This document shows positions 5,361-51,263 of a stretch of DNA of 64,000 bases, one piece after another (positions within the stretch are counted from its first letter, which is position 1; every line of letters begins with the position of its first letter). A program made the position numbers and the translations under genes. This DNA comes from Flaviramulus multivorans. GTDB lineage: Bacteria > Bacteroidota > Bacteroidia > Flavobacteriales > Flavobacteriaceae. The notes beneath the pieces were generated by a model that was not told where the DNA came from, made no database searches, and saw only the letters and a program-made list of their open reading frames with translations. The DNA lies in NCBI RefSeq assembly GCF_021728415.1, contig NZ_JAKKDV010000002.1, positions 124,001 to 188,000 of the forward strand. The letters are read 5' to 3'.

Positions 5361-7052
5361 TTATCTTACTAATTTTTTATATTTTATTCGTTTTGGCATT
5401 AAATCACCGCCTAAACGTTTCTTCTTATTCTCTTCATATTCTGAGAAACTCCCTTCAAAGAAATAAACTTGACTATTACCTTCGAAAGCCAAAATATGCG
5501 TACAAATCCTGTCTAGAAACCATCTATCGTGACTAATAACAACCGCGCAACCTGCAAAGTTTTCCAAACCTTCTTCCAGAGCTCTCAAGGTATTTACATC
5601 AAGGTCGTTTGTTGGCTCATCTAATAATAATACGTTCCCCTCTTCTTTTAGAGTCATGGCTAAATGCAAGCGGTTACGCTCACCACCGGAAAGTAACTTT
5701 ACTTTTTTATTTTGCTCACTTCCACTGAAATTAAAACGACTTAAATAGGCGCGCGAGTTTACTTGCCTACCGCCCATCATTATCAACTCTTGTTCATCAC
5801 TAAAGTTTTGCCAGATTGATTTTTCAGGATCTATATTAGAATGTTTTTGATCCACATAAGCTAATTTTGCGGTATCACCAACCTTAAACTCTCCTTTATC
5901 AGGTGTTTCCTCTCCCATAATCATTCTAAAAATGGTAGTTTTACCAGCACCGTTTGGTCCGATTACACCTACGATTCCTGCTTGCGGAAGATTGAAATTT
6001 AAATCTTCGTAAAGTAATTTGTCATCATACCCTTTACTAACTCCAACAGCTTCAATTACATTGGTTCCTAAACGTGGCCCGTTTGGAATATATATTTCAA
6101 GCTTTTCGTCAAGTTGTTTTTGGTCTTGACTCATTAACTTATCATAATTCTTTAAACGTGCTTTTTGTTTTGTTTGACGCCCTTTTGCTCCTTGACGAAC
6201 CCATTCTAACTCTCGTTCTAAAGTTTTTTGTCGCTTGGAAGCGGCTTTACCTTCCTGAGCCATTCGCTTAGATTTTTGATCTAACCATGATGAATAATTC
6301 CCTTTCCAAGGAATGCCTTCACCCCTATCCAGCTCTAAAATCCAGCCAGCAACATTATCTAAAAAGTATCTATCATGGGTTACCGCAATTACAGTTCCTT
6401 TATACTGTGCTAAATGATGTTCTAACCAATGTACTGATTCTGCATCCAAATGGTTAGTAGGTTCATCTAAAAGCAATACATCTGGCTCCTGCAATAGTAA
6501 ACGGCATAAAGCAACACGACGACGCTCACCACCTGAAAGTACAGCGATTTTCTTATCGCCATCTGGGGTTCGAAGTGCATCCATAGCTATTTCTAACTTG
6601 GTATCTAATTCCCACGCATTGGCAGCATCAATTTGATCTTGAAGCTCAGCTTGTCGGTTCATGAGCTTCTCCATCTTATCTGGGTTAGAATAAACTTCTT
6701 CTAAACCAAATTGGTCGTTTATTTTATTGTATTCATCAAGAATTGCTACAGTTTCAGCTGCACCTTCTCGAACAACTTCCATAACGGTTTTACTATCATC
6801 AAGAATAGGTTCTTGTTCTAAATATCCAACCGTGTAATCTTGTAAAAAGGTAACATCACCTTGAAAATTTTTATCTACTCCAGCAATAATTTTTAAAAGC
6901 GTAGATTTCCCTGAACCATTAAGTCCTAAAATTCCAATCTTAGCGCCATAAAAGAAGCTTAAATAAATATTCTTTAAAACGGGTGTGTTGGCACCTTGAA
7001 ATGTCTTGGTTAATCCAGACATTGAAAATATTACTTTCTTATCGTCACTCAT
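5361..7052 (-). CDS. ettA: Energy-dependent translational throttle protein EttA (ABC-F ATPase)
   Basis: 563 residues, near the usual EttA length of about 555. There are two ABC cassettes, each with Walker A (GLNGSGKST; GPNGAGKTT), signature (LSGGERRRVALCRLL; LSGGERNRLHLAM) and Walker B (LLLDEPTNHLD; LLLDEPTNDLD). They are joined by the basic P-site tRNA-interaction linker, with the toe-like KSKRMAQEGKAASKRQKTLERELEW region. No membrane segments. EttA binds the ribosomal E site and gates the first elongation steps according to the ADP/ATP ratio. It lies 1 nt downstream of the small membrane protein gene and ends in a convergent terminator. Confidence 0.96.
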   Translation of the reverse strand: MSDDKKVIFSMSGLTKTFQGANTPVLKNIYLSFFYGAKIGILGLNGSGKSTLLKIIAGVDKNFQGDVTFLQDYTVGYLEQEPILDDSKTVMEVVREGAAETVAILDEYNKINDQFGLEEVYSNPDKMEKLMNRQAELQDQIDAANAWELDTKLEIAMDALRTPDGDKKIAVLSGGERRRVALCRLLLQEPDVLLLDEPTNHLDAESVHWLEHHLAQYKGTVIAVTHDRYFLDNVAGWILELDRGEGIPWKGNYSSWLDQKSKRMAQEGKAASKRQKTLERELEWVRQGAKGRQTKQKARLKNYDKLMSQDQKQLDEKLEIYIPNGPRLGTNVIEAVGVSKGYDDKLLYEDLNFNLPQAGIVGVIGPNGAGKTTIFRMIMGEETPDKGEFKVGDTAKLAYVDQKHSNIDPEKSIWQNFSDEQELIMMGGRQVNSRAYLSRFNFSGSEQNKKVKLLSGGERNRLHLAMTLKEEGNVLLLDEPTNDLDVNTLRALEEGLENFAGCAVVISHDRWFLDRICTHILAFEGNSQVYFFEGSFSEYEENKKKRLGGDLMPKRIKYKKLVR

Positions 7053-7053
7053 G

Positions 7054-7236
7054 TTATACGCGTCCTTTTAAAGCATTAAACACCCAAGCAATAGCAAAAA
7101 ATCCTATACCAACGGTTGCAAAACCCCAGCCTGCAACATCATCATATCGATAAGCTCCCATTAGTATTAATATTATCCCCATAATTATCATGAGTACTGT
7201 TGCCCAAGCCAATACTGTATTTTTATTCATTGCCAT
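7054..7236 (-). CDS. CAL67264-type small membrane protein
   Basis: 60 residues with two hydrophobic segments (about 8-27 and 34-53) separated by the short loop YRYDDVAGWG, ending in a basic tail. It matches, from memory, a small two-pass membrane family known only from flavobacteria and annotated as CAL67264 family. It is immediately upstream of ettA (1-nt gap) and probably co-transcribed. No function is known. Confidence 0.8.
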   Translation of the reverse strand: MAMNKNTVLAWATVLMIIMGIILILMGAYRYDDVAGWGFATVGIGFFAIAWVFNALKGRV

Positions 7237-7294
7237 AATTTAGTTCTTAATTTGTCTTAGTTGTTAGAAAAACAAATATCGTATTTTTAAAATA

Positions 7295-7323
7295 AAAAAA
7301 GCATCCATTTTGGATGCTTTTTG
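7295..7323 (-). terminator. Rho-independent terminator of the pirin operon
   Basis: AAAAAGCATCCA / TGGATGCTTTTT stem with a short central loop. On the minus strand it is followed by a run of T residues, 19 nt after the pirin stop codon. Confidence 0.85.
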
Positions 7324-7341
7324 CTATTAATCAAACTAAAA

Positions 7342-8061
7342 TTAATTTAAAGGGGCTTCAATAAACAAAAGCCCTGAATCTTCATTTGTTGTTACACTAA
7401 ATTTATCAGTTTCTGAAATTCCTGCGGCATCTCTAGCTTCTAGCGAACTACCATTTATAGTATGATTTCCGAAAATTGTCATCACATAAACGCCATTATT
7501 TTTGTTTTTCATATGATACTCAAATGTAGAATCTTTATCCAAATCTATTCTTGAAATCACAGCGTTTTGATGAATTTTCAAACTTCCGTCATGGTTTCCA
7601 TCAATAGATGTTACTAGAGTTTGAAGCTCATTTTTTCTTCCTTCTTCATTAAACTTTTTTTGATCATATCGTGGTTCAACATTTCTTTTATTTGGAATTA
7701 TCCAAATTTGAAACAAACTTAAATGCTCCTTCGACGACCCGTTAATTTCGGAATGCTGCACACCAGTCCCGGCGCTCATAATTTGAACTTCGCCGGGTAC
7801 TACTGGTATCCATTGATCACCCATATTATCGCGATGCTTTAAAACACCTTTTAATGGAATCGTAATAATCTCCATGTTATCATGTGGATGGGTTCCAAAA
7901 CCCATATTTGGTGCTATTATATCATCATTTAATACTCGCAGTGCTCCAAATTGAATTTTATCTTTATCAAAATAGTTTGCAAAACTAAATGAATGGTTTG
8001 CTTGCAACCAACCATGATTTGCAAACCCTCTGTCTTCGGCTTTATGAATTACTGTTTTCAT
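7342..8061 (-). CDS. Pirin family bicupin (YhhW-like, quercetinase-type)
   Basis: 239 residues, the size of bacterial YhhW. The N-terminal cupin has the pirin signature: FGTHPHDNMEIITIPLKG supplies metal-binding histidines, and MSAGTGVQHSE follows. A second, degenerate cupin forms the C-terminal half. Family members bind Fe or Ni in the N-domain, and some have quercetin 2,3-dioxygenase activity. It is the last of four genes with an FMN reductase, a GNAT and a MarR regulator, which suggests a role in handling aromatic or quinone-like compounds. The substrate cannot be read from sequence. Confidence 0.92.
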   Translation of the reverse strand: MKTVIHKAEDRGFANHGWLQANHSFSFANYFDKDKIQFGALRVLNDDIIAPNMGFGTHPHDNMEIITIPLKGVLKHRDNMGDQWIPVVPGEVQIMSAGTGVQHSEINGSSKEHLSLFQIWIIPNKRNVEPRYDQKKFNEEGRKNELQTLVTSIDGNHDGSLKIHQNAVISRIDLDKDSTFEYHMKNKNNGVYVMTIFGNHTINGSSLEARDAAGISETDKFSVTTNEDSGLLFIEAPLN

Positions 8062-42588: not shown

Positions 42589-42752
42589 AAATAAATCAAT
42601 AACGCTGACATGTAATTGTTTATAACTTTTAATGTAAACCTTATATTACATATTGATTTTTTAGCTTTAAAAACCTAACTTCGCTTATACGTGCTGAATT
42701 TGTTTCAATATTAAAACAGCTTCATATCATGTCGTTGTACATAATTTATAAA

Positions 42753-43649
42753 ATGAAGTATTTTATTATAATAATATTGTTTTCGATAACAAAGGTTTTT
42801 GGCCAAGAAAGTAAATTAGGACTTTCTGAACTTTTGGTTAATTCCACTATTCGGATTGAATCATCTGGAGATACATTAATTAATGGTATTAATCAAAAGT
42901 TTAAGTCTGTTGGAACTGGCTTTTTCTTTCAATTCCAAGTTGATAGTACCAAAATAGCTACTATTATTACAAATTACCATGTAATAAAAAACACTGACAG
43001 TTTAAACCTGAATTTTACAGAAGAAATAAATGGCAAACCAAATTATGGTAGTATTTTAAAAACAAAAACGGGTCGAACAAAAAATAAATGGATTAGACAC
43101 CCAGATGTTGACTTAGCAATTTTACCATTAGACTCTATCAATTGGAGCTCTATAGAAAATAATAAGATTCCATTTTATGTGTCATATACTCAATCGGAAT
43201 TACCAAAAAAAGAATTAATTGAATCTTTAAGAGCAATCGAGGATTTATACATGATTGGTTATCCAATTGGTTTGTCAGACACTAGAAATAATATTCCAAT
43301 AACAAGAAAAGGAACTACAGCAACACCAATCTTTTTAGATTACGAAGGAAAAAAAGAATTTCTACTAGACATTTCTATATTTTCAGGCTCAAGTGGTTCA
43401 CCTATTGTACTTTATAATGAAGGTTCATATAATAACGGCCCTGGTTTAGTTATAGGTACACGCCTATTTTTACTTGGTATTAATGCTCAATCCAAAAATT
43501 ATAATGCCAAAGGAAATCTAATTTTACCATCAAATGTTAAAAATATTGAGACATATACTAGAATTCCTATTGATATAGCAATTATAATTAAATCATCAAA
43601 AATTATAGATTTCAAACCCATTTTAAAGAAAATAATCGAGCAAAAGTAA
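42753..43649 (+). CDS. Exported trypsin-like serine protease
   Basis: 298 residues from the ATG at 42753 (signal peptide MKYFIIIILFSITKVFGQ); an earlier in-frame ATG at 42729 would add eight residues ahead of it. The chymotrypsin-fold triad is readable: His in TIITNYHVIKN (H76), Asp in HPDVDLAILPLD (D120), Ser in FSGSSGSPIVLYNEG (S216). No PDZ or other extra domain, unlike DegP. It stands alone between unrelated genes after a 140-nt gap, so its role (general periplasmic proteolysis or a specific target) is open. Confidence 0.85.
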   Translation: MKYFIIIILFSITKVFGQESKLGLSELLVNSTIRIESSGDTLINGINQKFKSVGTGFFFQFQVDSTKIATIITNYHVIKNTDSLNLNFTEEINGKPNYGSILKTKTGRTKNKWIRHPDVDLAILPLDSINWSSIENNKIPFYVSYTQSELPKKELIESLRAIEDLYMIGYPIGLSDTRNNIPITRKGTTATPIFLDYEGKKEFLLDISIFSGSSGSPIVLYNEGSYNNGPGLVIGTRLFLLGINAQSKNYNAKGNLILPSNVKNIETYTRIPIDIAIIIKSSKIIDFKPILKKIIEQK

Positions 43650-43689: not shown

Positions 43690-44850
43690 CTACTTTAAAC
43701 TCCTTAAAATAAAATCTACCTTGTTATTGGTATTTTTGTTTTCGGCATACGAATCCGTAATATGTTTTGCAGGTATAGCTAGTTCGCTTTCAATTAAAGA
43801 TTCTATTTCGTTTACATAATCTAAAGACACTTTTCCAGTAAGTAACAAGCTTAAATCTTTTCCTTCATGGTAGTAATCGTAAATTTTTTTAAGTCCTGTT
43901 AAATACAAATAATCTTTAGTAAAACCGCCACCACGATGCGCTCGCACAGTGATATAATACGCTTCTTCACGCTCTAAATCGTATTGATTATGCAACAGCC
44001 TAAAAGTTCTTGAAAAGGTATAACCTTTGGCTAAACTATCTACAGCAATCACTCTATAAGCCAACTCTTTTAAGCGTGTAAGCGTTAAGTTATTACTCAT
44101 ATACTCCGAAAAAACCGCTAATCCTTCTTGGGTTTCTTCATTGTTCGGAAATCCGTGTGAAAATATTTTTAAAGGTTGCAAAATACCATTCATAGTAGTA
44201 ACCATATGCACACCAATTTCATGATTGGTTAAAACAGCAATTTCATTGTCGGAATAGGTATAATTAGCATTTAAAACCAGTGTTTTTATATTATTTAAAA
44301 CCATAGCTATCGCCGACATTTTATCAGACTGCTTAATGCTATAGCTAAAATCGTATTTCTTTGAAAAGTCTTTAAAAAAAACCTCAGCTTCGGTAGCGCT
44401 ATACTTAGGTTGAAAAGCGGGTACTTCTTTATTTTCATCTTCAAAATGAAGAATAAACTTAGCGTTTTCCACATCATTCTCAGTAGGCGTACCAAAACAA
44501 CGCAAACAGTTGTAGTAAAACTTTTTATCATTACCTATATTTTCAATACAGCGTATAAGCCCTGAATAGGTATAAATAATGTCTTCGTAAAGTTTTCTTA
44601 TCGCTTCATCTTCAATAAGTTCGATGCTTTGTGTATATAACTCTCTATGCAGTTTAAACTTGTCAAAATTAATCTCAGGATACTTAAAAACGGGGTCGGT
44701 CAAATATTTAGACGCAAAAAAAAGGGTTTTTTGTTCTTCAATATTAGTTGGGTTAACGTAGCTTAAAAGTTCAATTTGCTTTACTAAGGCATCAATACTT
44801 TCATCTATTTCAAAAAGGGCTTTAATAGCAACGTCGTTTCCAATCTTCAT
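43690..44850 (-). CDS. DUF1704 metallopeptidase (QEGLA motif protein, MATCAP family)
   Basis: 386 residues, soluble. Zinc-peptidase signature HEIGVH at 210-215 (HExxxH) with QEGLAVFSEY at 241-250 supplying the third ligand Glu242. This is the DUF1704 family, annotated as flavohemoglobin expression-modulating QEGLA motif protein. Its human members (MATCAP) are peptidases that remove a C-terminal tyrosine from tubulin. It is the last gene of a tight operon after the amidohydrolase (5-nt gap), the rhodanese and an ATP-grasp ligase. Carboxypeptidase-like activity on a small peptide or a protein tail is likely, but the substrate is unknown. Confidence 0.93.
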   Translation of the reverse strand: MKIGNDVAIKALFEIDESIDALVKQIELLSYVNPTNIEEQKTLFFASKYLTDPVFKYPEINFDKFKLHRELYTQSIELIEDEAIRKLYEDIIYTYSGLIRCIENIGNDKKFYYNCLRCFGTPTENDVENAKFILHFEDENKEVPAFQPKYSATEAEVFFKDFSKKYDFSYSIKQSDKMSAIAMVLNNIKTLVLNANYTYSDNEIAVLTNHEIGVHMVTTMNGILQPLKIFSHGFPNNEETQEGLAVFSEYMSNNLTLTRLKELAYRVIAVDSLAKGYTFSRTFRLLHNQYDLEREEAYYITVRAHRGGGFTKDYLYLTGLKKIYDYYHEGKDLSLLLTGKVSLDYVNEIESLIESELAIPAKHITDSYAENKNTNNKVDFILRSLK

Positions 44851-44855
44851 AATTT

Positions 44856-45686
44856 CTAACTTTTAAAGGCATTATAAACACGCATAGCGTGTTCGGGTAT
44901 GCGTTTTACCAATTCGGTTTCCACAGCATGTACAACTTCGGGGTATATAATTTGGTCGTATTCATCGCAGTACACCTTGGCAATTTCGGTTGCCAAAACT
45001 AAGGTATTTTTAAAATTCTGCGTAATGTATTTTAAAAAATAACCATTGCCTTGAAAGGTATCGTTAATTTTTGATGTCGATTTTATATTATTAGGAAACC
45101 TTATTTCAGATAAGCTTTGTCTCCAGCTTTCAACCACTGCTCCAAACCGATTGTTGTCAATATTGCTTGTTCCTAAATTCCAAGTAGGCACTTCCCTATC
45201 CCAACGTTTCCAATTATAGCTGTGCATATCGTAAACTGTACAAAAACCAAATTTAAACTCTATAGTTTCTATTAAAGTATGCACCACTTTGTAAAAATTG
45301 CTGTGTTTTTCAAGGCTTTTGTTTATCATCACTTCGGAAAGTGGATACTTCCAAAGTTGTTTTCCCCAAGCGTCGAAATAAATAGCACTTTCAGGCGATC
45401 GGTTTAAATCGTATTCAAATCGCGAATCGCAACCAGCAATCACAATAGGATGACTTTTAACCATGTTTTTAGTTTCAGGGTCTTCTTCGTACCATCTTTC
45501 ATATTCGGTATGCAAGCAAGACTTCCAAAGTTCTTTCCTAAATTGATGACCATCGTGTACCGCACCACATACATATGGTACATAAGCATCAATTTTTATG
45601 GTAAATGAATAGTCTGAAGCTACTGCTTCAAACGTTTGCTCGTTTTTAATTTTAGTAATAATATCTTTTAAAGGAAGTTTTTGCAT
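44856..45686 (-). CDS. N-formylglutamate amidohydrolase family protein
   Basis: 276 residues from the ATG at 45686; an upstream in-frame ATG at 45722 would overlap the rhodanese gene, and the 2-nt gap supports the shorter form. FGase-family motifs: HDGHQF (44-49), CDSRFEYDLNR (86-96), YDMHSYN (152-158) and NLGTSNID (170-177), with the metal-ligand and substrate-carboxylate arginine positions plausible. Classical members hydrolyse N-formyl-glutamate in histidine degradation, but no hut genes are nearby. In this operon it more likely acts on an amide made by the ATP-grasp enzyme. Confidence 0.9.
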   Translation of the reverse strand: MQKLPLKDIITKIKNEQTFEAVASDYSFTIKIDAYVPYVCGAVHDGHQFRKELWKSCLHTEYERWYEEDPETKNMVKSHPIVIAGCDSRFEYDLNRSPESAIYFDAWGKQLWKYPLSEVMINKSLEKHSNFYKVVHTLIETIEFKFGFCTVYDMHSYNWKRWDREVPTWNLGTSNIDNNRFGAVVESWRQSLSEIRFPNNIKSTSKINDTFQGNGYFLKYITQNFKNTLVLATEIAKVYCDEYDQIIYPEVVHAVETELVKRIPEHAMRVYNAFKS

Positions 45687-45688
45687 GA

Positions 45689-46507
45689 TTAATCCTTTAC
45701 TAAACTTCCCCACTCCGTCCAAGACCCATCATAAACCGAAATGTTTTTATAGCCCGCAATATCCGCTCCTAAAGCTAACACACAAGCTGTAATACCCGAG
45801 CCACAAGAAAAAATAACAGGATCGTTTTTATGAGCAACCATATACAAAGCTTTTTCAAGCTCTATTTTAGGTTTTAAAATACCATTATCGAGCAGTGTTT
45901 CAAAGGGTAAGTTTACCGAATTTGGAATTGTACCTTGACGTAAACCTGCTCTGGGTTCTGGCTCCTCGCCATTAAATCTACTGGGAGAACGTGCATCGAC
46001 AATTTTGTGGGTTTTATTTTTTGAAGCGTCTTCAACATCTTTAAAAAACTTCATAAGGTCAGGTTGAAGGTTTGGTGTAAAATTACCAGAAGGACCATCA
46101 TATAATTTCATTGACTCGACTGCATAGTTAGCTTGTAACCAAGCCGGAAAGCCACCATTTAAAACAGCTACATTATTGTAACCAAATGCTTTAAACAACC
46201 ACCATACCCGTGCACTGGAATATATACCTTTATCGTCATAAACTACAATGGCACTATTATTATTAATACCTAAAGCTCTTGCTTCTTTTTGAAATTGTTG
46301 AGACGAAGGAAAAGCACTCGGAAACGGGTTTGAAGTATCACTAAACTTATTTTTTATATCGAAAAGTCTTGTGTTGGGAATTTGCTTTTGAGAAGCGTCA
46401 AACACTTTGTTTATGGTGCCATCTAAAATAACAAGATTGTCTGCATTCAAATTAGCATGAAGCCAATCAACGGTAACTATAGGCTGATTTAATTCGATTC
46501 CTTTCAT
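45689..46507 (-). CDS. sseA: 3-Mercaptopyruvate sulfurtransferase-type tandem rhodanese
   Basis: 272 residues with two rhodanese domains. The C-terminal domain has the active-site loop CGSGIT (Cys235), the mercaptopyruvate sulfurtransferase form rather than the thiosulfate form. The N-terminal domain carries VVYDDKGIYSSARVWWLF without Cys, as is usual. It moves sulfur from mercaptopyruvate to thiols or cyanide in the cytosol. It lies 9 nt after the exported-protein gene and 2 nt before the amidohydrolase gene in the five-gene operon. Confidence 0.92.
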   Translation of the reverse strand: MKGIELNQPIVTVDWLHANLNADNLVILDGTINKVFDASQKQIPNTRLFDIKNKFSDTSNPFPSAFPSSQQFQKEARALGINNNSAIVVYDDKGIYSSARVWWLFKAFGYNNVAVLNGGFPAWLQANYAVESMKLYDGPSGNFTPNLQPDLMKFFKDVEDASKNKTHKIVDARSPSRFNGEEPEPRAGLRQGTIPNSVNLPFETLLDNGILKPKIELEKALYMVAHKNDPVIFSCGSGITACVLALGADIAGYKNISVYDGSWTEWGSLVKD

Positions 46508-46516
46508 CTTCCAAAA

Positions 46517-47038
46517 TTATTTAAAAGCTAAAAACACTTGAGGAATAATAACCCATCTATCTCCCACTTTAAAAAAAGCAGCTCTTGTTTTATGATTAGA
46601 ATCCGCATCATTTACATACTGCAATCCATAAACCGTTACACCATCGTTAAGATAATTTGCTAATATGGCATAATCTTCGGGAAGTCCGTTCGTTATCCCT
46701 TTGCTCAATTCTGATTTGGTTGCAGACAGTACGTTGGCTTTATCAGTATCGCTAGTTGGTTTCATACTACTATCAGGCACCTTATCAATGCCATTCCATT
46801 TTTCATGGGAGTAATCAAAAGCTTTTTGAGCATAATCTTCATTTAAAAAAATGATAGAATAATCACTTTGTAAAGGTTTGAGTGTTTTAAGAAACGTATG
46901 ATTGGTATCTACTCTTAACTTTGTAATGACATCTTGCAGCTCGTCTATTTCATTATTCTGAGCAAAAATATTAGAACAAGTAAAACTGCATAGAATACAA
47001 ATAATAAGGAGTTTATATGTTTTTATGACCTTAAGCAT
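46517..47038 (-). CDS. Small exported protein of unknown function
   Basis: 173 residues from the ATG at 47038, which begins a signal peptide (LKVIKTYKLLIICILCSFTCSNIFAQ); an earlier ATG at 47074 lies inside the ATP-grasp gene. The mature part of about 145 residues has a helical middle and a C-terminal beta region with DGVTVYGLQYVND and RAAFFKVGDRWVIIPQVF, reminiscent of small NTF2-like or lumazine-binding folds, though I cannot show this. It overlaps the ATP-grasp gene by 8 nt, so it belongs to the operon. Confidence 0.75.
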   Translation of the reverse strand: MLKVIKTYKLLIICILCSFTCSNIFAQNNEIDELQDVITKLRVDTNHTFLKTLKPLQSDYSIIFLNEDYAQKAFDYSHEKWNGIDKVPDSSMKPTSDTDKANVLSATKSELSKGITNGLPEDYAILANYLNDGVTVYGLQYVNDADSNHKTRAAFFKVGDRWVIIPQVFLAFK

Positions 47039-48068
47039 CTTGAACAGTTTTTCTAAGTCTGGTACGTCTATCAAAAGCTTGAAGTTTATCTAACACCTTC
47101 ATTTCTAAAAAGTCAATTACTTTTTCTTCAATTTTCGTTTTAAGCTTATAAACTTTATTGATATAGGTGATTCCACCCGGAGACATCACATTAACCTCAA
47201 CCAGTTTACCACCAATAACATCAATACCTACAAAGTAAAGTCCGTCGTTTACTAATTTAGGCCCTATTTGTTTACAAAGCGCTTTTTCAGCTTTTGTAAG
47301 CGCATGTCGTTGCACACTACCACCAGCAGAAACGTTGGAACGGTGGTCGTCATTTCCTGGAACACGTTTCATGGCTCCTACAGCTTCACCATTAAGCATT
47401 AGAATACGAACATCGCCTTGGTCTGCACCTTCAATATAATCTTGAAGAATTACATAGTTTGAAGACCCATCGCCACTATTTATATAAAAATCGAGCAAGG
47501 AATTAATATTACTCATGGCCGATTTTTCAATTAAAATAACACCCGAACCACCAAAACCATTAAGAGGTTTTAGTATCATTTTATCAGATTTCGATTCTCG
47601 TATTTGTCTGATTAAATATTTTTTGCTTTTTGAGACATGAGTAGCAGGAATAATATTGCTGTGAGCATCGCCAAAAGCTGCTGTATAAAGCTTGTTATTT
47701 GCTTCACGCATGCCTTCTAAAGAATTCATGATAAACACATCGTCTTTAACCGAATCTAAAAAGTTAAGCATGATAGGGTCTAGTGGTGGGTTTGCTCTAA
47801 AAAAGATAACATCAAAACCTGCTAATGGTAGCATTTCTTCGCGTAATTCTGCCTTTTTGTAAAATGACTTTAACGAACCTGGAGTTTTATCCATTCTACC
47901 AACAACCTTACAAGTCGCATTTGTAACACTATTCCGTATAGTTAAATTTGAAGGTGTACACATGGCTACACCATGTTTTCTTTTTACACATTCTTTAATC
48001 AATGCTAAAGTTGTATCATGTTCTGGGTCTATTTCTTCCCAAGGATACATAATGAAACAGATGTTCAT
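47031..48068 (-). CDS. GshB-like ATP-grasp ligase
   Basis: 345 residues. N-terminal pre-ATP-grasp domain (about 1-125), then an ATP-grasp with KPLNGFGGSGVILI (Lys167 and glycine loop 171-176), LQDYIEGADQGDVRILM, GAMKRVPGNDDHRSNVSAGG (hinge and substrate region) and VGIDVIGGKLVEVNVMSPGG (E291-x-N293 metal ligands). It is close to prokaryotic glutathione synthetase, and may be annotated so. But no glutamate-cysteine ligase is nearby, and the organism has bshA, so glutathione itself is doubtful. First gene of the operon with DUF1704 and N-formylglutamate amidohydrolase, 47 nt downstream of the symporter gene. Confidence 0.9.
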   Translation of the reverse strand: MNICFIMYPWEEIDPEHDTTLALIKECVKRKHGVAMCTPSNLTIRNSVTNATCKVVGRMDKTPGSLKSFYKKAELREEMLPLAGFDVIFFRANPPLDPIMLNFLDSVKDDVFIMNSLEGMREANNKLYTAAFGDAHSNIIPATHVSKSKKYLIRQIRESKSDKMILKPLNGFGGSGVILIEKSAMSNINSLLDFYINSGDGSSNYVILQDYIEGADQGDVRILMLNGEAVGAMKRVPGNDDHRSNVSAGGSVQRHALTKAEKALCKQIGPKLVNDGLYFVGIDVIGGKLVEVNVMSPGGITYINKVYKLKTKIEEKVIDFLEMKVLDKLQAFDRRTRLRKTVQDA

Positions 48069-48115: not shown

Positions 48116-49441
48116 TTATTTCACTTCATCATAATGGTCGTCCCATTCTTTTGGTTTGGGATCGTGTAGTTTACCTAATGATTTTGCTACCATTAAAGAA
48201 ACGGTGGCATCACCTGTTACATTTACTACCGTTCTGCACATATCTAAAGGTCGGTCTACTGCAAAAATCAGGGCTAACCCTATGGGCAATAATTCCGCTG
48301 GAAACCCTATAGATTCAAGCACAATAACTAACATAACCATACCAGCGCTTGGTACCGCTGCACTACCAATTGATGCTAATAGTGCTGTCGCAACTATAAC
48401 CAGTTGATTTGTAAATGTTAAACCTTCGGGCCAAATAACTTGCATGATAAATACAGCAGCAATACCTTGATACAAACTAGTTCCATCCATATTTACAGTA
48501 GCACCAACAGGTAAAACAAATCCAGACACTTCTTTATCTACTCCTAAGTGTTCTTCCACACGCTCCATAGTTACTGGTAAGGTAGCAGCACTACTACTGG
48601 TTGAAAATGCTAATAGTTGCGCTGGACTTATCTGTTTTAAAAACCATAAAGGTGATTTTTTTCCGTAGACGGTTACTAAAATCATGTAGAAACCAATCAT
48701 TAAAATGAGTCCGCCCACAACACAAAGCGAATACCATAATAGTTTTATTAATATTTCGGCATCATCAAAGGCAATAATAACATTGGCTAATAACGCAAAC
48801 ACCGCATAAGGTGCAAAAAGCATAATTAAGTCGACCATTTTCATCACGACTTCATTTAAAGAATCAAAGAAATCTATGAGTGGTTTTGCTTTCTTCTCAC
48901 CAATTAACAACAAACAAATACCTACAAATAGGGCAAAAAAGATAACCTGTAACATAGATGCCTCAACAAAAGATTCGAAAATGTTACTCGGAAAAATATC
49001 TACTAAAGGTTGTAATGGTCCTGCATCTTTTTGTGCAGAAGCTTTCATTAATTTATCGGTTACACCCGCATCGTTTTCGTATTTTAATTTAATTTTTTCA
49101 AGGGTATCTTGGGGCATCCCTTTACCTGGTTTAATTGTGTTTACGATACTTAAACCAATAATAATGGCCACCAATGTTGTACCAATATAAATACCAATGG
49201 TACGCAATCCCATCGATTTTATTTTAGAAATATCTTTTAAATCTGAAATACCTTTAATTAAAGATGCTAGAATTAAAGGGACTGCTATAAGCTTAAGAAG
49301 ATTAATAAAAATGGTTCCAAAAGGCGCAACCCAATCGGTGACAAAGCCTTTGCCTCCATCTACATTATTCATTATAAAACCAAAAATGATTCCGAGAATC
49401 ATTCCAATAATAATCTTCCAGTGTAGTGCTAGTTTTTTCAT
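48116..49441 (-). CDS. Dicarboxylate/amino acid:cation symporter (DAACS family)
   Basis: 441 residues, eight transmembrane helices plus two re-entrant hairpins. Conserved: FSTSSSAATLPVTMERVEEHLGV (serine-rich hairpin HP1), VLPVGATVNMDGTSLYQGIAAVFI (the NMDGT cation site), and RPLDMCRTVVNVTGDATVSLMVAKS (substrate Asp/Arg, D-x-x-R-x-x-N-V-x-G-D). A Na+ or H+ coupled importer of glutamate, aspartate or C4-dicarboxylates. It lies upstream of the ATP-grasp operon on the same strand and might feed it, but could be independent. Confidence 0.95.
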   Translation of the reverse strand: MKKLALHWKIIIGMILGIIFGFIMNNVDGGKGFVTDWVAPFGTIFINLLKLIAVPLILASLIKGISDLKDISKIKSMGLRTIGIYIGTTLVAIIIGLSIVNTIKPGKGMPQDTLEKIKLKYENDAGVTDKLMKASAQKDAGPLQPLVDIFPSNIFESFVEASMLQVIFFALFVGICLLLIGEKKAKPLIDFFDSLNEVVMKMVDLIMLFAPYAVFALLANVIIAFDDAEILIKLLWYSLCVVGGLILMIGFYMILVTVYGKKSPLWFLKQISPAQLLAFSTSSSAATLPVTMERVEEHLGVDKEVSGFVLPVGATVNMDGTSLYQGIAAVFIMQVIWPEGLTFTNQLVIVATALLASIGSAAVPSAGMVMLVIVLESIGFPAELLPIGLALIFAVDRPLDMCRTVVNVTGDATVSLMVAKSLGKLHDPKPKEWDDHYDEVK

Positions 49442-50201: not shown

Positions 50202-51263
50202 CTAACTATAAATCTTATTGAGCAAATAAAAATCGGCGATAACTAAGGCTGCCATAGCCTCAACAATTGGAACTGCACGAGGAACCACACAAGGATCATG
50301 ACGTCCTTTACCATGCATTTTCACAACTTTACCCTCTTTATCGATGGTTTCGTATTCCTGAATTAAGGTAGCAACCGGTTTGAAGGCCACGTTAAAGTAA
50401 ATATCCATACCATTACTGATACCACCTTGAATACCTCCAGAATAGTTGGTTTTGGTTGTGCCATCAGTATTAAAAGCATCATTATGATCACTACCATACA
50501 TGGTGCTTCCGTGAAAACCGCTACCATACTCAAAGCCTTTTACAGCGTTTATGGACAGCATAGCTTTACCTAATTCGGCATGTAATTTATCGAACACAGG
50601 CTCTCCTAAACCAACAGGTACGTTTTTAATAACACAACTAACAATGCCACCAACCGTATCGCCTTTACCACGTACTTCTTTAATGTAATTTTCCATTTTT
50701 GAAGCCATAGCTTCGTCTGGGCATCGTACTATATTTGTTTCGGCTTTTGCTAAATCTAGTTCTGAATAAGGTTTTTCCAATTTTAAGGTTCCTACAGCAG
50801 AAACATAGGCTGTAACCTGTACATCTTTAAGCATCTGTTTTGCAATAGCACCAGCTACTACACGACAAGCTGTTTCGCGAGCAGAACTGCGCCCACCACC
50901 ACGATAGTCTCTTACTCCATACTTTTTATCGTAGGTATAGTCGGCATGACTTGGACGGTAACTATCTTTTATATGAGAATAATCGTGTGATTTTTGATTG
51001 GTATTTTCAATTACAAAACCAATAGGGGTTCCTGTAGTTACGTCCTCAAAAATGCCTGAGTGGAATTTTACAGTATCTGGTTCCTTTCGTTGGGTAACAA
51101 TAACGGATTGCCCTGGTTTTCTTCGATTTAGTTCGTTTTGAATCGCTTCAATATCTAATTCAATCCCTGGAGGACAACCATCAATAACACCGCCTAAAGC
51201 GGTTCCATGAGATTCACCGTAAGTTGTTAGATTAAAAAGTTTACCGAAGGAATTACCAGCCAT
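50202..51263 (-). CDS. aroC: Chorismate synthase
   Basis: 353 residues, full length. Signatures: [31 protein letters not shown] at the N-terminus, the FMN/EPSP sites [46 protein letters not shown] and [17 protein letters not shown], and the C-terminal [17 protein letters not shown]. Converts EPSP to chorismate, the precursor of menaquinone and aromatic amino acids. 83 nt downstream of the dehydrogenase gene; single gene otherwise. Confidence 0.98.

Follow-up and report, generated by a model that had tools for sequence, protein, structure and literature searches.

The closest described relatives of the gene set treated here are the glutathione synthase GshB of Escherichia coli (structure 1gsa), the ribosomal protein S6 glutamate ligase RimK, the human tubulin tail carboxypeptidases and deglutamylases MATCAP/TMCP1 and TMCP2 (KIAA0895L and KIAA0895), and the N-formylglutamate amidohydrolase (FGase)-fold structures 2q7s and 2odf. 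Clusters in which ATP-grasp peptide ligases go with linked peptidases were reportedly predicted by Iyer, Abhiman, Burroughs and Aravind in 2009. Here we analyse a 64,000-nucleotide stretch of the Flaviramulus multivorans genome (GCF_021728415.1, contig NZ_JAKKDV010000002.1, positions 124,001 to 188,000; hereafter the window), in which an ATP-grasp ligase, an FGase-family hydrolase and a MATCAP (DUF1704) peptidase are encoded in one minus-strand operon. These three genes form a real, widely conserved set. In the literature searched, a collection that lacks most subscription journals, we found no paper that describes these three genes as a system.

The window ligase shares with GshB its two-domain ATP-grasp architecture and its length, but carries RSN and SPGG motifs in place of RGN and SPT, scores under the GshB equivalog model TIGR01380 and has MATCAP rather than gshA as its gene partner. 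RimK is likewise an RSN-loop ATP-grasp enzyme with an M14-related hydrolase alongside (AstE/AspA-type, in the same genome), yet it is shorter, aligns with the window ligase at 26% identity and has no MATCAP. The peptidase has the PF08014 domain, the HExxxH motif and the downstream Glu of human MATCAP, and a model of a long bacterial MATCAP matches the human fold with Z 22.5; it differs in that its gene shares an operon with those of a ligase and an FGase-fold hydrolase, in a genome that has FtsZ and no tubulin. Finally, the window FGase has the fold of 2q7s and 2odf, but at 18 and 14% identity, and it adjoins or is fused with MATCAP.

Conservation and co-localisation of the three genes

The first-pass annotation, made from the window's letters, had proposed that ligase and hydrolases work as a unit, an idea that would fail if the three families were unlinked in other genomes. 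We found the trio co-localised in many genera of two phyla, which supports the proposal. Whole-genome counts cover Bacteroidota, the proteobacterial cases come from individual records, and family scans used Pfam gathering and NCBIfam curated cut-offs.

Among 247 Bacteroidota genomes, with 20-kb neighbourhoods read around MATCAP, the peptidase occurs in 15; a ligase lies alongside in 14 of the 15 loci and an FGase in 13. The association also holds from the ligase side, where 16 of the 18 PF02955 matches above 160 bits are beside MATCAP, in the 14 genomes. The remaining two, in L119 and L120 (228 and 231 bits), adjoin a GCS2 gene, and the next match scores 97 bits. Denser sampling of the family, with 199 Flavobacteriaceae genomes at one per genus, linkage defined as within 6 kb and a ligase threshold of E <= 1e-38, placed MATCAP in 95 genera (106 MATCAP and 101 ligase matches). 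Here 97 of the 106 MATCAP genes have a ligase within that distance, and 99 of the 101 ligases a MATCAP. Both genes occur in 88 genomes, MATCAP without the ligase in seven and the ligase without MATCAP in none. Fisher's test gives p 9e-49 for this co-occurrence, a value overstated because genera were treated as independent.

Locus members were then sought by tblastn in named relatives, the best 80 of 575, all near the window's own form. FGase was present in 80/80 loci, the ligase in 76/80, a GltP/DctA-type symporter gene (gltP) in 63/80 (once on the opposite strand), a sulfurtransferase in 45/80 and a small protein, read as a 185-amino-acid (aa) open reading frame (ORF), in 3/80. Three of the four loci without a ligase end at a contig edge. 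The gap between FGase and MATCAP has a median of 3 nucleotides (nt) and is below 100 nt in 77 of 79 loci. Over 58 loci, pairwise divergence is correlated among the trio (r 0.58–0.66) and less so with the symporter (0.25–0.29), whose matches may include paralogues that would lower its values. The neighbourhood is a non-chance association. Given how often FGase and ligase recur, compared with the sulfurtransferase and the 185-aa protein, the unit comprises three genes and not the five originally grouped together.

Two forms of the module and fusion of the hydrolases

Two arrangements were distinguished. Type A, found in the window, has a short MATCAP (~390 aa) and the order ligase-FGase-MATCAP, while type B, found in other Bacteroidota, has a long MATCAP (~610-660 aa) and the order FGase-MATCAP-ligase. 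The type B trio also occurs in a Roseateles plasmid record flagged as unverified and on rhizobial plasmids, including those of Shinella and S. meliloti 1021 (pSymB, L113); the plasmid set is weighted towards rhizobia, Sinorhizobium contributing 79 of its 127 records. At two loci (L021, L022), ligase and FGase are still in place at the type A site, but the MATCAP next to them is of the long form, and a second ligase, of type B, follows. This is a natural module swap.

By Pfam, FGase and MATCAP form one polypeptide in one Bacteroidota locus (L020), two Photobacterium loci (L114, L124) and one Vibrio locus (L115), and hence in two phyla. Pfam assigns no family to the N-terminal part of long MATCAP (two proteins tested), but the profile of this part aligns with the FGase profile by hhalign (E 1.2e-5, probability 81%), against control values of 0.36 for the MATCAP profile and 0.37 for the ligase profile. 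In a 620-residue model of a long MATCAP (mean predicted local distance difference test score, pLDDT, 79.6; predicted template modelling score 0.70), the best fold match of this part is the FGase 2q7s, with Z 11.7 over 173 residues and all others at or below 10.4. Since the candidate metal ligands are lost in the hhalign alignment, the domain is read as a degenerate FGase. No other observation suggests as strongly as this repeated tie that FGase and MATCAP work together as one body, and their recurrence as a fusion makes it probable that the separate hydrolases share a complex. An apparent MATCAP-ligase fusion in L028 (a 914-aa ORF) was rejected as a frame artefact, as Pfam finds no MATCAP there.

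Motifs of the ligase and the two hydrolases

The window ligase matches PF02955 (182 bits) and GSH-S_N (84 bits), and exceeds the NF009110 (PRK12458) cut-off of 408 with 457.2 bits. Its K167, E291 and N293 are invariant in 14 aligned sequences. RSN and NVxSPGG motifs occur in 76/76 ligase loci; SPT occurs in 0/76, and the letters RGN appear somewhere in 2/76. Type B and rhizobial ligases keep RSN, with the second motif varying as [ST]PG[GA]. E. coli GshB and two Bacteroidota GshB proteins (L119, L120) carry RGN and SPT (as NVTSPT), whereas RimK carries RSN with a PG motif.

For MATCAP, the PF08014 score of 328 bits lies far above the gathering threshold of 27; the TIGR02421 QEGLA score (310.6) stays under its cut-off of 338.65, with a nearly full-length match and the QEGLA motif present. 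H210, E211, H215 and E242 are invariant in 14/14 sequences, and a profile match to human MATCAP (7z5g, E 3.5e-16) aligns both the HExxxH motif and the downstream Glu. The human TMCP1 mutants E281A and E316A are reported as inactive (PMC10499314), and by their spacing these residues would correspond to the Glu positions of the bacterial enzyme.

The FGase passes PF05013 with 44.4 bits (cut-off 28.9). Its model (mean pLDDT 93) is closest to 2q7s (Z 24.6, 2.4 Å over 238 residues) and 2odf (Z 22.0), ahead of M14 carboxypeptidases (Z <= 12.7), succinylglutamate desuccinylase (11.0) and a phage polyglutamate hydrolase (10.7). H44, E68 and H155 are invariant in two alignments, one with 25/25 rows (the L115 fusion not included), and are putative zinc ligands. 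The residues singled out in the first-pass annotation are all in place: K167, E291 and N293 of the ligase, HEIGVH and QEGLA of the peptidase, and Cys235 of the sulfurtransferase.

Expression, gain and loss in Vibrionaceae relatives

COG3930 presumably corresponds to the MATCAP family. Both VV2_1203 (COG3930) and VV2_1204 (glutathione synthetase) of Vibrio vulnificus are listed as clade-2 specific (PMC3091676), and the two are jointly absent in one strain and jointly present in another (PMC6667273). Published RNA sequencing of Photobacterium damselae RM-71 at 1% vs 3% NaCl gives the neighbouring locus tags A0J47_RS17020 (GshB) and A0J47_RS17025 (QEGLA) as 38.4-fold and 27.5-fold up, with RimK 52-fold up at low salt (PMC10308900). 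Judged by gene names and numbering, these two are likely the pair found in L114.

Proposed function and its alternatives

On balance we lean, with modest confidence, towards a dedicated three-enzyme module that would act in the cytoplasm to make and unmake an acidic compound held by an amide link, for which a glutamyl or aspartyl amide is the likeliest candidate. Following the chemistry of its class, the ligase would activate a carboxylate as an acyl phosphate and couple it to an amine. MATCAP would take off an acidic or aromatic residue from the C terminus of the compound, and its probable complex partner, the FGase-fold enzyme, would split an acyl or glutamyl amide in it; reaction direction and metal use are here as we infer them. 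Salt or osmotic state probably sets when the module is used, as suggested by the single Photobacterium experiment above. If this reading is right, PRK12458 is a common annotation in error, and the current labels, which call the ligase a glutathione synthetase and the peptidase 'flavohemoglobin expression-modulating', hide an unrecognised metabolite or tag with an amide link. The locus also sets a bacterial MATCAP beside the enzyme that probably makes its substrate, so that the ancestral chemistry of a human tubulin-modifying family could be tested directly with purified proteins.

Several observations weigh against this proposal. The acidic nature of the substrate is suggested by the adjoining symporter and by family analogy. 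In the phylum set, one locus has MATCAP with neither ligase nor FGase nearby (L016), and another has MATCAP and ligase with no FGase nearby (L029, genome G053). In the family set, two ligases stand away from MATCAP: G320 has one as a second copy (192 bits), and that of G429 is on a contig of its own. One of the 80 named loci (L073) has no ligase though space is present. The Vibrio fusion (L115:8125-10116) has DMYAYN for DMHSYN in its FGase half, which suggests loss of that activity, and no ligase adjoins it. Foldseek returned no match for the long MATCAP model at E <= 0.001, so its N-terminal FGase-like fold rests on hhalign and VIA-align.

The main counterweight comes from the nine MATCAP genes of the family set that have no ligase within 6 kb. 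The ninth lies at a contig end; the other eight share the order 353-aa gene (a homologue of the one in the window), gltP, MATCAP, with ligase and FGase missing from the stretch read and the gltP symporter retained in 8/8. For six of the eight, the genome has no ligase match at the threshold used, while G252 and G275 have a long MATCAP with a ligase elsewhere. HEIGVH and QEGLA are kept in six of these eight peptidases. The seventh (L157) has HEIGVH with QEGMA, and neither HExxxH nor QEGLA was found in the last (L162, ORF 6907-8058, beside gltP), whose genome also has a separate long MATCAP with a ligase. Ligase and FGase thus go missing jointly, whereas MATCAP and the symporter can remain. MATCAP can therefore live independently, which suggests that the trio is not obligate and that the peptidase also serves other substrates.

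One alternative, which we consider unlikely, is a protein-tail cycle: the ligase would extend a protein C terminus by Glu or another residue, which MATCAP and FGase would take off again. MATCAP relatives are reported to act on tubulin tails and to shorten glutamate chains (PMC10499314), and the TTLL writers of such tails are ATP-grasp enzymes (PMC13137484). The ligase loops resemble those of RimK, which is co-induced with the pair in Photobacterium (PMC10308900). On the other hand, the operon lacks a conserved gene for a target protein, and the FGase fold is closest to a small-substrate amidohydrolase. The tubulin parallel drawn in the first-pass annotation goes no further than resemblance: the genome's sole tubulin-superfamily match (PF00091) looks, by eye, like FtsZ.

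By analogy, the locus could go further and be a bacterial write-and-erase system with the three folds of the eukaryotic tubulin tail code, its target being an acidic peptide or protein tail and its control osmotic. The ATP-grasp writer would be the counterpart of TTL/TTLL, MATCAP would be an eraser, and the FGase-fold enzyme, which we take to be kin to cytosolic carboxypeptidases, would be the M14-like-fold eraser corresponding to them. We consider this broader view distinctly unlikely. If true, the MATCAP branch would have a bacterial relative in such a system, and perhaps its origin.

Quite improbable, in our assessment, is that the product is glutathione or a close gamma-glutamyl thiol, with the ligase a diverged GshB and both hydrolases recycling the product. 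NCBIfam names the ligase subfamily glutathione synthetase, and, as a point against the three-enzyme module we favour, the PRK05246 glutathione synthase cut-off of 272 is passed by the window ligase (just, at 279.6) and the Photobacterium ligase (284.6), though not by a type B (219) and a rhizobial (213) ligase. However, neither the window ligase (232.7) nor the Photobacterium ligase reaches the TIGR01380 cut-off of 299.05, while the L119 GshB scores 408; against E. coli GshB 1gsa, the window ligase scores 125 bits and L119 355. The L119 and L120 gshB genes adjoin a GCS2 gene. PF04262 (gshA) was found in 0/15 MATCAP genomes and PF04107 was not found in 8/14 ligase-bearing genomes (a PF08886 search was silent, as was its control). 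Two GCS2 (PF04107) proteins in the window's own genome could supply a gamma-glutamyl dipeptide, but they belong to other ligase clusters. Given its RimK-like motifs, its TIGR01380 score and the lack of PF04262, we judge it unlikely that the window ligase is a glutathione synthase of the ordinary kind. In L119 and L120, a 251- or 354-aa gene separates gshB from the GCS2 gene and a gene that is phosphatase-like by eye follows.

It is very improbable that the locus is a ribosomal-peptide or secondary-metabolite cluster in which a precursor peptide is lengthened by the ligase. Such clusters commonly contain ATP-grasp ligases together with peptidases, but the window leaves scant space for a precursor, with gaps of a few nt inside the operon, 47 nt to gltP and 40 nt to the convergent gene, and the 185-aa protein is present in 3/80 loci; the ORFs considered were of 80 aa or more, and tailoring or export genes may lie among the recurring neighbours, most of which carry no annotation. 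The first-pass annotation saw no histidine-degradation genes in the window, which may be correct, but the genome has them elsewhere. We give very little credence to the FGase being the ordinary HutG of histidine degradation with incidental neighbours: a hutH-hutU-hutI row lies on contig 7 of the same genome (L153:7503-12304) with no HutG identified beside it (no search aimed at formimidoylglutamase was made) and the genome has two PF05013 proteins, but the window FGase accompanies MATCAP in every one of the 80 loci, is fused to it elsewhere and matches no NCBIfam model at E <= 0.1, presumably with the HutG model among those scanned.

Features of the locus and neighbouring genes

ORF positions and family scans confirmed the five minus-strand genes of the first-pass annotation, which had not included the symporter gene, on the same strand 47 nt upstream of the ligase (Table 1). 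Alignment moves the FGase start from the TTG at 45722 to the ATG at 45686, and in the 185-aa ORF an in-frame ATG at 47038 immediately precedes a segment that is signal-like by eye. With starts so trimmed, neighbours among the five genes overlap by up to 8 nt or stand up to 9 nt apart. No known defence system in PADLOC was matched by any of the five proteins, and scans for sigma-70 promoters and terminators near the operon gave no excess over shuffled sequence.

Table 1. Features of the window at and around the ligase-FGase-MATCAP locus
Feature	Coordinates	Strand	Basis and remarks
GshB-like ATP-grasp amide ligase, 345 aa, NCBIfam PRK12458 subfamily	47031..48068	-	PF02955, GSH-S_N, NF009110; core gene 1
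FGase-family hydrolase, M14-carboxypeptidase-like fold, 276 aa	44856..45686	-	PF05013 and predicted fold; core gene 2
MATCAP (DUF1704, QEGLA) gluzincin-type peptidase, 386 aa	43690..44850	-	PF08014 and human MATCAP profile match; core gene 3
3-mercaptopyruvate-sulfurtransferase-like rhodanese, 272 aa	45689..46507	-	PF00581; frequent passenger, outside core
Small, probably exported protein, 173 aa from ATG	46517..47038	-	No family over Pfam or NCBIfam cut-off; lineage-specific passenger
GltP/DctA-type dicarboxylate (glutamate/aspartate-type) symporter	48116..49441	-	PF00375; conserved upstream neighbour
353-aa gene, chorismate synthase by eye	50202-51263		Homologues recur near ligase-less MATCAP loci
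Trypsin-like peptidase-domain protein, signal-like start by eye	42729-43649		Convergent with MATCAP, 40 nt apart

The symporter matches PF00375 with 416 bits and does not reach the GltP and DctA equivalog cut-offs. No relative of the trypsin-like protein was present in the MATCAP neighbourhoods of the 247-genome set. Export of the small passenger protein, judged by eye, is probable. The sulfurtransferase has a Rhodanese domain (PF00581), a score of 205.3 bits on NF008557 (cut-off 250) and a CGSG loop that holds Cys235 (numbered by eye). A sulfur-bearing product, which the first-pass annotation had considered possible, is weakened by its distribution: 35 of the 80 Flavobacteriaceae loci, some of them truncated at a contig end, gave no match for the gene, four annotated proteobacterial trio records list none in the stretches read, and the window protein has no tblastn match in L113-L118.

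Phage carriage of the module was considered and set aside, as none of 13 pattern stretches in viral contigs is a relative. The single phage match, in an UNVERIFIED Pseudomonas phage record, has 46% query cover, no sister genes in 8 kb and no MATCAP-length frame standing out; it may be stray host DNA. An EcfG-type general-stress promoter motif, sought upstream of the rhizobial trio, matched in 1/4 loci and was dropped.

Three further ligase clusters in the same genome indicate that pairing a ligase with a hydrolase is common in kind and that the present combination is distinct. On contig 4 (436.7-440.1 kb; L031:6723-10073), an RLAN-RimK ATP-grasp enzyme, a GCS2 protein and the second FGase stand in a row downstream of a GntP-type permease. 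Contig 1 (56.5-60.6 kb; L032:6517-10631) carries an R2K-like ATP-grasp protein (under the Pfam cut-off) with a YbdK-type carboxylate-amine ligase (PRK13515, 544 bits) and a class I glutamine amidotransferase; a 398-aa protein that no NCBIfam model matches completes the cluster. Elsewhere on contig 1 (869.1-871.0 kb; L121:623-2473), RimK (NF007764, 365 bits) adjoins the AstE/AspA-type deacylase, an arrangement also seen, by eye, in L122.

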